Notes under the pieces: generated by a model
What the model was told of the DNA's origin: nothing
The model's database searches: none
What the model saw: only the letters and a program-made list of their open reading frames with translations
In this document: piece after piece, positions 18,663 through 23,257 of the stretch
Position numbering within the stretch: the stretch's first letter is position 1
Layout of the letters: each line of letters begins with the position of its first letter
Translations under genes and position numbers: made by a program
Virus record (IMG/VR): IMGVR_UViG_3300030104_003310
Span: 1 to 25,291 of that record
Direction: 5' to 3' (one strand)
Length of the DNA stretch: 25,291 bases
From: a virus

Positions 18663-18842
18663 ATGGGATTAGTTTTAAGACGTAGAAAAGGGGAAACAAT
18701 ACGCATCAATGATGATTGTGTAATCGTTTTCCATCATGTAAATAACTCGCGTGCTAAGGTTGAAATCAAAGCACCTGAATCTGTGAAAATTTTAAGAGGG
18801 GAAATAGAAAATGGGGAATCCATTCAAGAAGCCAAAAGCTAG
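18663..18842 (+). CDS. csrA: CsrA/RsmA-family RNA-binding regulator
   Basis: 59 residues (ATG 18663, GGGGAT 4-9 nt upstream). The start GLVLRRRKGETIRINDD matches the CsrA opening L-[IV]-L-x-R-[RK]-x-G-E-x-[IL]-x-I, and KAPESVKILRGEI matches the A-P-x-x-V-x-V-x-R-x-E-I end. Arg45 equals the RNA-contacting Arg44 of E. coli CsrA, and the first strand is kept. CsrA dimers bind GGA in mRNA leaders to block or aid translation. The gene overlaps the Sak4 gene by 32 nt, so it carries that gene's ribosome site inside its last codons. Found in a phage early operon, where it could rewire host or phage mRNA use. Confidence 0.9.
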   Translation: MGLVLRRRKGETIRINDDCVIVFHHVNNSRAKVEIKAPESVKILRGEIENGESIQEAKS

Positions 18843-19695
18843 AGGTAGCCAGCGAGCAAAGATCATTCTTTCGGGCAAAGCCGGGGTTGGTAAAACTGTG
18901 TTTGCTATGCAGTTTCCAGCCGTGGCATTTATAGACGTTGAAGGCAGTGCCGAGCGTGAATGGTACGCCGACCAACTCAAAGCCAATGGGGCTAGTTACT
19001 TTGGACGTGATGATGGCAGCCAAGATATAGCTGAAGTAATCAAGCTGATTAAATGGCTGGCAACCAACAAGCACGATTTTAAAACTGTCGTGATTGATTC
19101 ATTCAGCAAGATGTACAGCGTCGAAGCTGCACGGTGTGCAAAGCTGAAGCGGAACGGCAAAGAGATTGGGACGGACTTTGGTGCGGATCGGCGTGAAGCC
19201 AACAAGCAGGTCAGAATTCTGTTTGAATGGCTTGATAAGCTGGATATGAACGCCGTCCTGATATGCCACAGCAAACAGGACTACGGCTCTGAAACCAATG
19301 AAACCACATTTGACGGCATGAATCTGATGGATCATGAACTTGATTTGTGGCTGGAATGCCTATTGCGTGGCACTGATAAACGCGAGATTCGTGTTAGGAA
19401 GCAGCGTTTGCAGGGATTCAAGCTAAATGAGCGGTTTCCGTTGGATTTTGAGACATTTGCCAAGAAGTATGGGGAAAAGCACCTAAACGCCAGCGTTGAA
19501 GCCGTAGAAGTAGCCTCAGATGCTCAGGTTGCAATTCTAAGAGGTTTAATCAAAGAAGCTGGCATAGGGCAGGTAACTGTTGATAAGTGGCTACAGAAGG
19601 CCAAAGTGCAGCACTTGGAGGAGTTGCCGCATGATTTGGTGAACAAGTCTATTGAATATTGTGAGGGGCGATTGAATGCGACGGGTGCGAGTTAG
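18811..19695 (+). CDS. RecA-like ATPase, Sak4-type (AAA_24)
   Basis: 294 residues. Walker A GKAGVGKT (22-29) and Walker B TVVIDS (92-97) with a RecA-like core; FIDVEGSAE (40-48) and ICHSKQDYGSE-type middle strand are typical of the phage AAA_24 nucleotide-binding family. Some members (Sak4) are single-strand annealing recombinases that need a partner SSB. The C-terminus (about 240-290) has a small helical domain. An SSB-like gene lies 168 bp downstream, which supports the recombinase reading. Start ATG 18811 has GAGGGGAAAT upstream, inside csrA. Confidence 0.8.
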   Translation: MGNPFKKPKARGSQRAKIILSGKAGVGKTVFAMQFPAVAFIDVEGSAEREWYADQLKANGASYFGRDDGSQDIAEVIKLIKWLATNKHDFKTVVIDSFSKMYSVEAARCAKLKRNGKEIGTDFGADRREANKQVRILFEWLDKLDMNAVLICHSKQDYGSETNETTFDGMNLMDHELDLWLECLLRGTDKREIRVRKQRLQGFKLNERFPLDFETFAKKYGEKHLNASVEAVEVASDAQVAILRGLIKEAGIGQVTVDKWLQKAKVQHLEELPHDLVNKSIEYCEGRLNATGAS

Positions 19696-19873
19696 TAGGA
19701 AAGTATTAGACGCCTGTATTGCGTTTGAGTGCATCACAGACTTGCCTAGATATTTTGACGGCATGACTTTGAAGCAGATCCAATCATGGATTAAAACCAA
19801 CCACGGCGTACGTATAGGTTTAGTTACTTTGGAAAATATATGCATTTATAGGAGCGTTAAGTATGCAATTTGA
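19676..19873 (+). CDS. Small HTH-like protein, unknown
   Basis: 65 residues; GAGGGGCGATTGA lies before ATG 19676. It overlaps Sak4 by 20 nt and the SSB-like gene by 11 nt, filling the gap between them. Sequence TLKQIQSWIKTNHGVRIGLV has the shape of a helix-turn-helix with a strand, after a basic N-terminus (RRVRVSRKVLDACIAF). No family recognised. Tight packing and a good ribosome site favour a real gene. Confidence 0.55.
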   Translation: MRRVRVSRKVLDACIAFECITDLPRYFDGMTLKQIQSWIKTNHGVRIGLVTLENICIYRSVKYAI

Positions 19874-20291
19874 TCCGAATACTGTTAAAGATGCCAGCTG
19901 GCTAGTGCCAGAGGGTGAATATGATTTCGAGATTGTTCACGCTGAAGATTCAGTCAGCAACTTTGGTTTGCAGCAGATGTTTTTTAAGTTTAGGGTATTC
20001 CTGGCGGATGGAAACACTGCGTTGATTCATCAGTATATCGATGAAAACCACTTATATCAGTTGAAACATTTATGTAATTCGATCGGATGTATTGAATTCT
20101 GGAATGATGGCGATTGTGATCCAGGCGATATGTTTAACAAGTCTGGGAGGGGGTTTCTCGGAACCTATGACAAGAAAGACGGAACCAAACGCAACACATT
20201 CAAGCGTTTTCTAGAGCCGGAAGAAGCTAGCAAGAAAAAGCTAGAGGATGACATAAAGAAAGTCGAAGGCGATGACGATATACCATTTTAG
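19863..20291 (+). CDS. DUF669-like single-strand DNA-binding protein
   Basis: 142 residues; TAGGAGCG precedes ATG 19863. It starts PNTVKDASWLVPEGEYDFEI, the DUF669 pattern, with later FFKFRVFLADGNTALI and FLGTYDKKDGTKRNTFKRFL strands, an OB-like arrangement. The last six residues are DDDIPF, identical to the C-terminal tip of E. coli SSB, which recruits many genome-maintenance proteins. The tail before it is acidic and helical. It is the likely ssDNA-binding partner of the Sak4-type protein and the host replisome. Confidence 0.82.
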   Translation: MQFDPNTVKDASWLVPEGEYDFEIVHAEDSVSNFGLQQMFFKFRVFLADGNTALIHQYIDENHLYQLKHLCNSIGCIEFWNDGDCDPGDMFNKSGRGFLGTYDKKDGTKRNTFKRFLEPEEASKKKLEDDIKKVEGDDDIPF

Positions 20292-20294
20292 GGA

Positions 20295-20370
20295 GCAGCC
20301 ATAAAACTTTCGGGTGGCTGCGACCGTCTGGGTTACAGCTGCCAGTGGGGACATTGGCAGCTATTTTTTT
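20295..20370 (+). terminator. Tandem hairpins ending in a strong terminator
   Basis: GCAGCCA (20295-20301) pairs with TGGCTGC (20315-20321). After 15 bases, AGCTGCCA (20337-20344) pairs perfectly with TGGCAGCT (20355-20362), extendable by a G-T and a T-A pair to a six-base loop GGGGAC, and followed by ATTTTTTTA. The second is a textbook intrinsic terminator for the early operon. Its loop shows a GGA, the core bound by CsrA in hairpin loops. Confidence 0.85.
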
Positions 20371-20493
20371 ATGAATAAACAACTCGAGATAGGGATCGTG
20401 TTGGCGATTGGGATAGTGATGCCAGGTCTTTTAACAGGGGTTGTTTTAACGGTTTATATGATTTGTAGATATTTATATTTAAGGGGCAAATAA
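20371..20493 (+). CDS. Possible 40-residue membrane protein
   Basis: Open frame of 40 codons ending in the TAATATG junction with dcm. Nearly the whole product is one hydrophobic span (IGIVLAIGIVMPGLLTGVVL, then TVYMICRYLYLRGK) with a positive C-terminus. The ATG directly follows the T-run of the terminator and has no ribosome site; GTG codons at 20398 or 20416 with GGGAT before them are alternatives. It may be a chance frame. Confidence 0.35.
   Translation: MNKQLEIGIVLAIGIVMPGLLTGVVLTVYMICRYLYLRGK
20431..20460 (+). promoter_or_regulatory. Weak candidate promoter for dcm operon
   Basis: TTAACA (20431-20436), 18-bp spacer, TATATG (20455-20460). It lies downstream of a strong terminator, so some promoter is expected before dcm. 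The match is only moderate. The dcm ribosome site AAGGGG follows at 20481-20486. Confidence 0.3.
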
Positions 20494-20494
20494 T

Positions 20495-21364
20495 ATGTTA
20501 AAAGTGGGAGAACTATTCGCTGGTATAGGCGGCATTGGTCTAGGTTTGGAGATGACCGGAGGCTTTGAGGTTAAGTGGCAAGTTGAGCGTGACGAATACG
20601 CCTCTAAAGTATTGGCGAAGCATTGGCCAGAAGTTCAGCGCTTTAATGACGTGCGAACTTTTCCACCCGGCGACAACAATGATTATTACGTCGATTTAAT
20701 AGCAGGCGGGTTTCCTTGTCAGGACATAAGCGTAGCCGGTAAGGGTGAAGGATTAAAAGGTGAACGAAGTGGCCTATTTTACGAAATTGTGCGAATTGCG
20801 GAAAGACTCAGACCAAGATACCTACTCTTGGAAAACGTCTCAGCTCTCCTTGTTCGGGGGTTTGGAGACGTTCTCAGAGAGCTGGCCGAGATCGGGTATG
20901 ACGCGGAGTGGCATTGCATACCGGCTGCCGCCGTTGGTGCGCCTCACAGACGTGATCGGGTCTTCATCATTGGGTACGCCAACAGCGACCATGAGAGTAC
21001 GGTCGGAGAAGTTCAGGAAGGGAAGATTACCGAATCCAGCGGAAGCCGTACAGCCGATGCGGTGGCCGACACCGATCGCGACGGACGGCCGCAAGACGTT
21101 CATACCGACCCCGACGGCGTCAGCCGGCAAGGGAGCGGCGTCGAGTCGTTTCTTGGGATCGAAGAACTACAGGGGCAACTTGAGCGAATACGTTCGGACG
21201 TCGGCCGACGACAGTGGGAAATTGAACCCGACGTGGGTCGAGTGGCTGATGGGTTTCCCGGTCGGGTGGACCAACTTAGATGTTTAGGCAATGCGGTAGT
21301 ACCGCAGGTTGCACAGTTCATAGGGGAAATGATATTGAGGGCTGAGCAATGCAAGGATACGTAA
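20495..21364 (+). CDS. dcm: C5-cytosine DNA methyltransferase (Dcm-type)
   Basis: 289 residues, ending with a C5-methyltransferase order of motifs: I FAGIGG (8-13), IV GGFPCQDIS with catalytic Cys75, VI ENV (113-115), VIII GAPHRRDRVFI (148-158), then a target-recognition region of about 100 residues, and IX-X RVADGFPGRVDQLRCLGNAVVP (broken: RVADGFPGRVD, LGNAVVP about 264-270). It makes 5-methylcytosine, probably to shield phage DNA from host restriction. It is on the short side for the family. No restriction nuclease gene lies nearby. AAGGGG precedes ATG 20495. From 20760 to 21287 a second gene reads the same DNA in the +1 frame. Confidence 0.92.
   Translation: MLKVGELFAGIGGIGLGLEMTGGFEVKWQVERDEYASKVLAKHWPEVQRFNDVRTFPPGDNNDYYVDLIAGGFPCQDISVAGKGEGLKGERSGLFYEIVRIAERLRPRYLLLENVSALLVRGFGDVLRELAEIGYDAEWHCIPAAAVGAPHRRDRVFIIGYANSDHESTVGEVQEGKITESSGSRTADAVADTDRDGRPQDVHTDPDGVSRQGSGVESFLGIEELQGQLERIRSDVGRRQWEIEPDVGRVADGFPGRVDQLRCLGNAVVPQVAQFIGEMILRAEQCKDT
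20760..21287 (+). CDS. Overprinted gene nested in dcm (conserved phage protein)
   Basis: 175 residues, fully inside dcm in the +1 frame. GTG 20760 has GAAGGA 6-11 nt upstream. The sequence shows features I recognise from proteins next to or within phage methyltransferase genes: SWKTSQLSLFGGLETFSESW, PRSGMTRSGIAYRLPPLV, several WPTP / PTPTAS repeats, and an end LNPTWVEWLMGFPVGWTNLD. At the same bases dcm encodes its conserved motifs VIII-X, so both frames carry family-like sequence. The function is unknown; pairing with dcm suggests a role in methylation or its control. A chance frame would not be expected to show this ordered, family-like motif set. Confidence 0.75.
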   Translation: MNEVAYFTKLCELRKDSDQDTYSWKTSQLSLFGGLETFSESWPRSGMTRSGIAYRLPPLVRLTDVIGSSSLGTPTATMRVRSEKFRKGRLPNPAEAVQPMRWPTPIATDGRKTFIPTPTASAGKGAASSRFLGSKNYRGNLSEYVRTSADDSGKLNPTWVEWLMGFPVGWTNLDV

Positions 21365-22185
21365 AGATTCACCGGAGGATTCTAGAATCAGAAGTATTTG
21401 AAGACCCGAGGCTATTTAAAACGTGGATGTGGATTCTATGCAAAGCAAACTTTAAGCCGGTTGTTTTGAACAACGGAACAGCACTAAAAACGGGCCAATT
21501 TGCTATGTCGTACGGCCGGGCTGCAAGGCATTTAGACTGCAGTGTAAACACGGTCAGGCGGCATTTTAAGCGATTAAAAGCCATGCAAATGATTGACACG
21601 CAGAGCGGCGCGCAGTTTACCGTTGTAAGTATCTGCAATTACAGGACTTACCAACACAGTGATGGAAATGGCGGCGCGCCGACGGATACGCAAACGGATA
21701 CGCAAACGGATACGGACACGGATACGCAGACGGATACGGAGACGGCACACAGAAGAAGAAATATAAGAAAACAAAAAAATAATAATAAGGGGATTGGTTT
21801 TTTTTCGGGGATGGAACCAGCCAGACAAGCACAACTTGAAAAGTGGTATCAGTACCGTCAGCAGATGGGTGGCTACACACAACAGCAGCTAGAGGAATTT
21901 GCTAAAACCGTGCAACATCTGGATTCTAAACAGCTAGAATTAAAAGTGAGCCGTGCAATCGCTAATGGCTGGAAGTCTCTAGTGCACATGGACGTTGAGC
22001 CAGTGCCTAAAGCAGCTCCGGCAAAACGTACAACCCAAGCCGATGTTATGGCTGGCGAGATATACAGCATAGAGCAGAAGATCAGCAAACTGAAAAAACA
22101 CGGTGATCCTGAAACTATAAACAGCCTGGAATCCAAACTGAAGGAGTTGAAAAGTGCTCAGAGCAAAATACATCAAACAGGGTGA
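21349..22185 (+). CDS. Replication initiator / replisome organiser
   Basis: 278 residues. The N-terminal 100 residues are a winged helix of the phage replication-protein type: YVKIHRRILESEVFEDPRLF, KTWMWILCKANF, and ARHLDCSVNTVRRHFKRLKA as recognition part. A T/D/Q repeat (about 112-131) follows, encoded by 12-bp iterons, then a basic stretch HRRRNIRKQKNNN. The C-terminal half is helical (QQLEEFAKTVQHLDSKQLEL), likely to load helicase. As in lambda O, the DNA origin would lie inside its own gene. It overlaps dcm by 16 nt. Confidence 0.75.
   Translation: MQGYVKIHRRILESEVFEDPRLFKTWMWILCKANFKPVVLNNGTALKTGQFAMSYGRAARHLDCSVNTVRRHFKRLKAMQMIDTQSGAQFTVVSICNYRTYQHSDGNGGAPTDTQTDTQTDTDTDTQTDTETAHRRRNIRKQKNNNKGIGFFSGMEPARQAQLEKWYQYRQQMGGYTQQQLEEFAKTVQHLDSKQLELKVSRAIANGWKSLVHMDVEPVPKAAPAKRTTQADVMAGEIYSIEQKISKLKKHGDPETINSLESKLKELKSAQSKIHQTG
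21682..21741 (+). repeat. Five 12-bp iterons (probable origin)
   Basis: Units start at 21682, 21694, 21706, 21718 and 21730. The first nine bases are ACGGATACG in all five; the last three vary (CAA, CAA, GAC, CAG, GAG). A partial ACGG follows. Units are contiguous, near one helical turn each. They are in frame and encode T-D-T-[QDE]. Confidence 0.75.
21746..21807 (+). other. A/T-rich probable unwinding region
   Basis: Directly after the iterons, the top strand is A-rich (GAAGAAGAAATATAAG, then A7 and ATAATAATAA) and ends with a run of eight T's at 21800-21807. This is the layout of a duplex-unwinding element beside initiator-binding repeats. Confidence 0.55.
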
Positions 22186-22408
22186 AAACAAACGGTGCAA
22201 AGTAATCACGAACAATGTTGATATTCTAGCGCAACTCGACCAACAACTAGGAAAAGCAGGTTTTAAACAGGTTGGTATAATTGCACATCTTATATCATTC
22301 ATTACAGCCGGCAGGAGGCCAAAACGTGCTAATTCTAAAGCCACAAAAGCTGGTGATTCTAACGCCGCCCGGGACACAGGCAAGCGGGATCCACAACTGT
22401 TTGGGTGA
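22154..22408 (+). CDS. Small basic protein, unknown
   Basis: 84 residues from GTG 22154, with GGAG 7 nt upstream. It overlaps the replication gene by 32 nt and the next gene by 83 nt. It is basic with a helix VDILAQLDQQLGKAGFKQVG and a hydrophobic part IIAHLISFITAG. The second half lies under the strong ribosome site of the next gene and is low-complexity (R, K, A, N). It may be real because it fills a 140-base gap, but evidence is limited. Confidence 0.4.
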   Translation: MLRAKYIKQGENKRCKVITNNVDILAQLDQQLGKAGFKQVGIIAHLISFITAGRRPKRANSKATKAGDSNAARDTGKRDPQLFG

Positions 22409-22919
22409 TCGTAAAGGTGCAATGGTTTTAATGGCTTCTGGCCAGACACACTGGACACACCTACACAGCACAAAAATCCCAGATGACTACCTGCACTATC
22501 GGAGAGCTGTGGTTGTACGTAATCCCTTTACCAGAGCTCTGCAAATGTATGATGATTATTGTCAATTATCGGAATCTAATAACAAAAAGCCGATTAGCTT
22601 TTACGAATGGATCAGCAACCTAAAAACGCAGGACTGGGAGATACAAACAACCATCCACGAATGGGTTAGCGACCAAGTGCCAGCCGAACCGATTAAGTTT
22701 GAACAAGCAGCTCGGGACCTAAAACAGAGCTTTGGAATACGTATAAAATCACCGTTTAAGGATTACATCAACTGGAAAAAGCGATGGTGGCCGATTGGTT
22801 CAACCGCTATCTGTGAATTCAGGCAGCATGTAATCCAAGATATTGATCCCTACGGTTACACGACTAAAGCGATTACCTGGCTGGAAGCTAAAGCTATTGC
22901 AGGAATTTACGACGTATGA
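22326..22919 (+). CDS. Sulfotransferase-like protein
   Basis: 197 residues. GTG 22326 is chosen because AGGAGG (22313-22318) sits 7 nt before it. A TTG at 22281 would add 15 residues. It opens KLVILTPPGTQASGIHNCL, where TPPGTQAS (13-20) matches the PAPS 5'-phosphosulfate loop (often TPPKTGST). VVVRNPFTRALQMYDDYC (63-79) matches the 3'-phosphate-binding R-[ND]-P-F-x-R-x-x-S-x-Y motif. It has the sulfotransferase fold order but lacks the usual Ser after RNPFTRAL, so activity is uncertain. The replication-module location is unexpected. Confidence 0.6.
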   Translation: MLILKPQKLVILTPPGTQASGIHNCLGDRKGAMVLMASGQTHWTHLHSTKIPDDYLHYRRAVVVRNPFTRALQMYDDYCQLSESNNKKPISFYEWISNLKTQDWEIQTTIHEWVSDQVPAEPIKFEQAARDLKQSFGIRIKSPFKDYINWKKRWWPIGSTAICEFRQHVIQDIDPYGYTTKAITWLEAKAIAGIYDV

Positions 22920-23257
22920 ATTTCATATTGCCATATCCGCCAACCGTAAACACCTACTGGCGAAAGTTTAACAACCGGATGGTTATTTCACCTAGAGGCA
23001 GGCAGTACAGAAAAGATGTAGTCCAGCAGCTGCAAGGGTGTGAAACACTAACAGGCCGGCTGAAGCTAACAGTCATTGCAACTATGCCGGATAGACGCCG
23101 GAGGGATTTGGACAACATCCTCAAAAGCCTACTGGATGCAATGGATCATGCAGGGGTATTTGAAGATGATGAGCAGATAGATGAACTGCACGTATTCCGT
23201 AACGGCGTCGAAAAGCCTGGAAACGTTGCAATCTCACTTCAGGAAATAGAGCAATGA
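22916..23257 (+). CDS. rusA: RusA-type Holliday junction resolvase
   Basis: 113 residues, close to the 120 of E. coli RusA. The N-terminus LPYPPTVNTYWRKFNNRMVI and the core RRRRDLDNILKSLLDAM then FEDDEQI match the family. Asp64, Asp66, Lys70 and Asp85 align with E. coli RusA Asp70, Asp72, Lys76 and Asp91, so the catalytic set is complete. It cuts Holliday junctions formed in recombination or replication before packaging. It overlaps the previous gene (ATGA) and the next by 4 nt. Confidence 0.93.
   Translation: MNFILPYPPTVNTYWRKFNNRMVISPRGRQYRKDVVQQLQGCETLTGRLKLTVIATMPDRRRRDLDNILKSLLDAMDHAGVFEDDEQIDELHVFRNGVEKPGNVAISLQEIEQ

Follow-up and report, generated by a model that had tools for sequence, protein, structure and literature searches.

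Replication origins that lie within the coding sequence of their cognate initiator are known from lambda O, SPP1 G38P and pSK41 Rep. The sections of the published accounts cited here describe iterons and an A/T-rich tract midway along the lambda O gene (PMC7466680), direct repeats and an A/T-rich region inside the replisome-organiser gene of SPP1 (gene 38, oriL; PMC6316719), and a proposed origin inside the replisome-organiser gene of 80alpha (ORF20; PMC5499656). In the pSK41 rep gene, Rep boxes lie centrally and are bound by the winged-helix NTD, and for the RepA_N initiators of pSK41 and pTZ2162 the same section reports that the origin-encoded central region is dispensable and that the NTD and CTD are similar to DnaD (PMC5703833).

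Here we describe a locus of this type in an IMG/VR virus record of 25,291 bp, which was analysed in its entirety and is called the window below. As in origins of this type, tandem iterons lie inside the initiator gene, here in the linker, and an A/T tract adjoins them. We consider it probable that positions 21682-21805, made up of iterons and an unwinding element, are the phage replication origin inside its own initiator gene. This had been proposed in the initial annotation and is the best-supported reading of the locus, given the predicted winged helix, the array and A/T tract in the linker, and the same layout in homologues. The arrangement itself is known; the variant appears to be its family-wide, frame-crossing 11-bp form, and searches of open-access PubMed Central papers turned up no account of frame-rotating 11-bp iterons in this initiator family.

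The initial annotation had also stated that the locus copies lambda O. That is true of the layout, with iterons and an A/T tract inside the initiator gene, and apparently not of kinship: lambda O gets no match from the N-domain profile of the window's family, and among the fold alignments listed the longest are with plasmid RepA. The lambda iterons differ as well, with four 18-bp units at 20-24 bp spacing in the record annotation, against contiguous 12-bp units in the window. The window protein itself matches phrog_345 ('replication initiation O-like') at E 4.2e-6, a weaker match than those given below. SPP1 gene 38 resembles the window in the layout published in the cited section, an origin in the replisome-organiser gene. 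The 80alpha module, with a Sak-type protein, SSB and RusA, resembles the window module, where the order is Sak4, SSB-like, initiator and RusA, but ORF20 is unmatched by the family's N-domain profile. The RepA_N initiators of pSK41 and pTZ2162 may be alike in N-domain fold, the predicted fold aligning with plasmid initiators over 89-95 residues at Z values that CRP-type domains tie, and differ in their iterons; pfam06970 (RepA_N) matched neither the window protein (E <= 0.1) nor 26 family members (0.001).

The initiator gene and the replication module

The module runs in the order Sak4-like ATPase, SSB-like protein, C5 methylase, initiator, RusA. Its features, and those within the initiator gene, are as follows.

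18811..19695, plus strand: Sak4-like recombinase/ATPase (phrog_124 E 5.4e-21; AAA_24 E 1.2e-19)
19863..20291, plus strand: possible single-strand-binding-like protein (C-terminus DDDIPF; weak DUF669 match, E 0.085)
20495..21364, plus strand: C5-cytosine DNA methylase, directly upstream of the initiator (PF00145 E 4.9e-50)
21349..22185, plus strand: initiator gene, 278 aa, overlapping the end of the methylase gene
21349..21654, plus strand: N-terminal winged-helix domain, about aa 1-102 (AlphaFold2 and structure alignment)
21664..21795, plus strand: linker coding region, aa 106-149, predicted disordered (pLDDT < 50)
21682..21745, plus strand: array of five contiguous 12-bp iterons ACGGATACGNNN plus a partial sixth, proposed as binding site of the initiator
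21746..21805, plus strand: A/T-rich tract, 77% A+T, proposed DNA unwinding element
21820..22185, plus strand: C-terminal region, helical (AlphaFold2, less certain than the N-domain)
22916..23257, plus strand: RusA-type Holliday junction resolvase (PF05866 E 2e-17)

The DDDIPF end of the 19863..20291 protein is what we take to be an SSB-like acidic tip. Between the SSB-like and methylase genes lies a strong terminator-like hairpin (20337-20362; 11-bp stem, T-rich tail), close to an A/T tract at 20444-20483, and the interval between the initiator and RusA may encode a sulfotransferase-like protein (22281-22919; weak PF03567 match, E 0.021). Of the window proteins scanned with Pfam and PHROGs v4 profiles, none was recognised as a helicase or loader. 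The gene that follows the homologue is annotated as a DNA helicase in Vibrio phage 1.182.O and encodes a DnaC-domain protein in Pseudomonas phage KLEP17-4.

The initiator belongs to the sequence family of phrog_2514 (E 3.9e-25, residues 1-147) and phrog_186 (E 4.9e-16), whose name, 'DnaD-like helicase loader', implies a loader; phrog_2514 is matched by all 26 aligned family members. The DnaD domain (TIGR01446 / PF07261) was matched by three of these 26 and not by the window protein, which had no NCBIfam match at 0.01 and no Pfam match to this domain at 0.1. From their sequences, the family proteins that bear this name look like origin-carrying initiators.

The gene had been described as encoding a winged-helix replication protein, and as a prediction this was borne out by the AlphaFold2 N-domain, the PDB fold alignments and the phrog matches. 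Residues 11-100 were modelled at pLDDT 88-97, within a whole model of mean pLDDT 72.9 and pTM 0.40. Among the PDB alignments listed for the N-domain model, the longest were with 4pt7, 4pql, 5kbj and 4pta (Z 7.6-8.7, 89-95 residues); 4PTA and 4PT7 are described as plasmid RepA structures in the cited section of PMC7145576. CRP-type winged helices reached Z values as high over 66-75 residues, so that the fold resembles winged-helix proteins generally and does not single out RepA_N. Searching PDB sequences with the initiator gave weak, generic HTH-regulator matches only.

A contiguous 12-bp array in the linker

The five full units start at 21682, 21694, 21706, 21718 and 21730 and end at 21741; a partial ACGG follows, reaching 21745. 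Each consists of an invariant ACGGATACG followed by NNN, which reads CAA, CAA, GAC, CAG and GAG in order, and the translation is TDTQ TDTQ TDTD TDTQ TDTE. The five contiguous 12-bp repeats with an invariant core noted in the initial annotation were thus confirmed: the array is the top-scoring tandem array that TRF reported for the window (score 96), and its linker repeat score was reached in none of 300 codon-shuffle and none of 300 synonymous-codon null trials (p 0.003).

Two ways of extending the unit beyond the window were dropped. Three exact copies of ACGGATACGNNN, tried as a wide consensus, occur in 34 stretches of viral contigs, one of them with an initiator as judged by the N-domain profile (L018, the same contig as L002 below). 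A frame shift between the window ACGGATACGCAA and L050 ACGTATACACGG is matched equally well by a second, in-frame register (window TACGCA, L040 TACACA, L038 TGCACA). The window unit agrees with the L051 unit at 10 of 11 positions with one base dropped, which 24 of 500 shuffles also reach when taken over 19 units; with a PWM test at p 0.04, this likeness is suggestive only.

Many of the other stretches with three ACGGATACGNNN copies are ACGGAN hexamer arrays of up to 336 nt, with a varying sixth base and often open in several frames. These lie in viral contigs, outside initiator genes (L005, L006, L012, L015, L021, L022, L029, L032, L033, L034 and others of L004-L037). In L013, L030, L031 and L035 a common flank (..MPIFFSVGSGDGDG..) precedes a GGATAC-type array, which suggests a single element whose array varies.

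An A/T-rich tract adjoins the array

The array is followed at once by the A/T-rich tract, with an A7 run at 21773-21779 and a T8 run at 21798-21805, as had been noted. The weakest 40-mer of the initiator gene starts 4 bases past the array. By nearest-neighbour energy this 40-mer, 21750-21789, is the joint weakest duplex of the whole record, tied with the intergenic 20444-20483; the tract ranks third-weakest over 60 bp and falls outside the top twelve over 80 bp. In the first 27 homologue clusters (see below), the post-array 40-mer ranked as its gene's weakest in 15 clusters and within the weakest 5% in 23, counts that are somewhat inflated since part of this sample was retrieved by a pattern inside the A/T tract. 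The searches that yielded L055-L085 and L169-L272 likewise used peptide patterns covering the tract, and A/T richness there is not independent.

The tie with 20444-20483 bears on the reading that the array serves as an operator or incompatibility site, bound by the initiator or by a different phage protein, and that the start of replication lies elsewhere, possibly near that tract, which is equally weak and lies behind the terminator-like hairpin. We regard this as an unlikely alternative, as a tandem repeat was looked for at 20444-20483 and none was found, and the arrays of most relatives have a weak tract of their own behind them, as the cited sections report for lambda and SPP1.

Close relatives and the codon argument

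The closest relatives, L002 (93% identity) and L003 (79%), have four units each. L002 lacks one whole 12-bp unit relative to the window; in L003 the units are degenerate and 3 of 12 core codons are changed, two of them with amino-acid changes. L038 and L039 (47%) have only a degenerate array, left unscored by the detector (7.0). A tree built on 89 N-domains groups the window with L002, L003, L038, L039, L040 and L050 (100/100). All seven carry the 12-bp label, which for L038 and L039 was assigned by eye on their degenerate arrays and which needs at least four changes on the tree. Because 12 is a multiple of three, arrays of this clade are frame-locked and free of stop conflict.

The initial annotation had argued from fixed codons to selection on the DNA. 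The codons are indeed fixed in the window; the conclusion does not hold on the window gene or its clade alone. Across the window's listed genes ACG makes up 27% of Thr codons and GAT 55% of Asp codons, and the 11 ACG and 5 GAT of the array would have p about 3e-8 under independent codon choice. This is no proof of selection, because tandem duplication copies codons. Codons for the same amino acid were identical to those of the window at 16 of 16 array sites in L002 (206/243 elsewhere) and at 11 of 13 in L003 (147/209 elsewhere), so identity in the array is above that in the rest of the gene, on codons too few to decide. The argument is weak alone, since a unit of 12 bp preserves the frame, codons are carried along by duplication and 3 of 12 have changed in L003; with the frame kept, constraint on DNA and on peptide is inseparable in this clade.

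Linker repeats across the family

Homologues were collected from viral contigs and phage records, a first scan of genome contigs having returned no relative of the window initiator. The N-domain profile was located in 127 of 131 sequences; the four without an initiator by this profile were omitted, and the rest formed 27 clusters at 80% identity. The tested linker was the 135 nt after the N-domain. As controls, the detector returned the annotated iterons of lambda O (gene positions 348-425) and, in 80alpha ORF20, picked up repeats that lie within the annotated putative origin.

In this first set 26 of 27 clusters passed the codon-shuffle test and 22 the synonymous-codon test (both p <= 0.02), and in 26 the linker repeat score exceeded anything in the N-domain. 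The best period was 11 bp in 15 clusters, 22 in two, 12 in three and 24 in one. For validation, 104 loci were taken from viral contigs and from named bacterial genomes, most of the latter Bacillota or Bacteroidota; they gave 58 new clusters, of which 57 passed the codon-shuffle and 39 the synonymous test, all 58 scoring higher than their N-domain; best periods were 11 in 40 clusters, 22 in four, 23 in three, 12 in one, and 9 or 18 in ten. Over both sets, tandem repeats occupy the same linker in 83 of 85 clusters, with a best period of 11, 12, 22, 23 or 24 bp in 69; periods of 8, 9 or 18 (15 clusters) mostly look like the A/T tract itself. One search pattern, QQQMDNKW, lies within the repeat, and the loci so found make up two clusters.

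A score of at least 17 was reached by 23 of the 27 linkers and by 8 of 1,795 windows from 188 further ORFs at these loci, all eight from one gene at period 18. That gene, neighbouring the initiator in L048 (1-460), carries a tandem 18-bp coding repeat of the AATTGGCTCTAATTCAGT type.

The universal core RRNNARYARCA, which scored 6.90 in the first 19 clusters against a null of 4.65 (sd 0.21, 40 permutations), was rejected after reaching p <= 0.05 in 13 of 48 new clusters (mean z 0.86). We therefore keep period and place, and not a core motif, as the apparent general feature of the family.

Frame rotation and stop triplets

Because 11 is not a multiple of three, the reading frame changes from one 11-bp unit to the next. 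In 19 such arrays the core C falls at codon positions 1, 2 and 3 in 30, 33 and 33 cases. Counting arrays with a score of at least 15, the consensus unit contains TAA, TAG or TGA in 26 of 59 eleven-bp arrays. Copies in which this triplet is out of frame kept it in 86 of 96 cases; copies in which it is in frame kept it in 0 of 31 and were exactly one base off in 28. An in-frame stop is never kept because the frame is open, and the informative part is the one-base difference. The other eight bases of in-frame copies are as near the consensus as elsewhere (0.43 vs 0.72 mismatches). An example is the array of Pseudomonas phage KLEP17-4, which reads GTGAACAGCAG, GTGAACAGCAA, ACGAACAGCAG, GTGAACAGCAG.

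This pattern is not expected of a repeat driven by its peptide and indicates that, as far as sequence comparison can tell, it is the DNA and not the peptide that is maintained in the relatives' arrays. The initial annotation had suggested comparing related phages for repeats kept under a changed protein code, and the comparison agreed with its proposal: the repeats persist in the 83 clusters, and homologues encode unrelated peptides there, among them RTHG, VTAEQQPSN and TTNQQQMDNKW.

The same data make it very unlikely that the array is a functionless product of neutral slippage in a tolerant, disordered linker, with A/T richness there by chance. Slippage would accommodate the one-unit difference between the window and L002, the degenerate L003 array with its two amino-acid changes, and the fixed codons, which duplication alone yields; it does not lead one to expect a significant repeat at the same place in nearly every cluster and in so few control windows, a period that is not a multiple of three, or stop triplets that yield by a single base only where they are in frame. 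That the T-D-T-Q peptide itself was selected, as a spacer or interaction segment with the DNA repeat as by-product, is hardly credible, for although the frame is constant in the window clade and three close relatives retain a Thr-rich linker, the linker is predicted disordered, homologues encode unrelated peptides there and the synonymous-codon null was rejected in most clusters of both sets.

A model for initiation

We infer binding, melting, helicase recruitment and origin use at 21682-21805. In an origin of this kind, the winged-helix N-domain would bind the five 12-bp iterons side by side, at about one site per helical turn, and assembly of the protein on them would strain and open the adjoining A/T tract. 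The C-terminal part, connected by the flexible linker, presumably brings in the host helicase by way of loading factors that are either the host's or unrecognised, and the linker peptide would be whatever the iteron DNA happens to encode.

GC skew, named in the initial annotation as a check, gave no origin signal: it passes from 0.21 to 0.07 across the array, not from negative to positive, and third-position skew is flat around it (0.05 and 0.07). The flanks of 72 relatives have no skew shift, with the right exceeding the left in 37. The window contains no DnaA box, two promoters were found against 3.1 expected, and Rfam returned nothing.

Implications for the family

Taking the lineages together, we lean towards a broader view, which takes in a very large class of phage initiators that currently carry the helicase-loader label. 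Their origin may consist of helical-turn 11-bp iterons running across all three frames of the initiator's linker; one copy in three, where the unit would spell a stop, would escape by a single base. In a few lineages, including this phage, a frame-locked 12-bp unit would remove the conflict. Since the unit differs by lineage, initiator and origin would evolve together as a linked pair and travel as a single cassette.

Such a family rule would make the origin of many uncultured phages predictable from one gene, and annotations of 'helicase loader' could be re-read as origin-carrying initiators. The arrays would also provide a natural case of two codes in one stretch, where a DNA site and an open reading frame collide and one base yields, and would make the co-evolution of initiator and origin testable across dozens of lineages.
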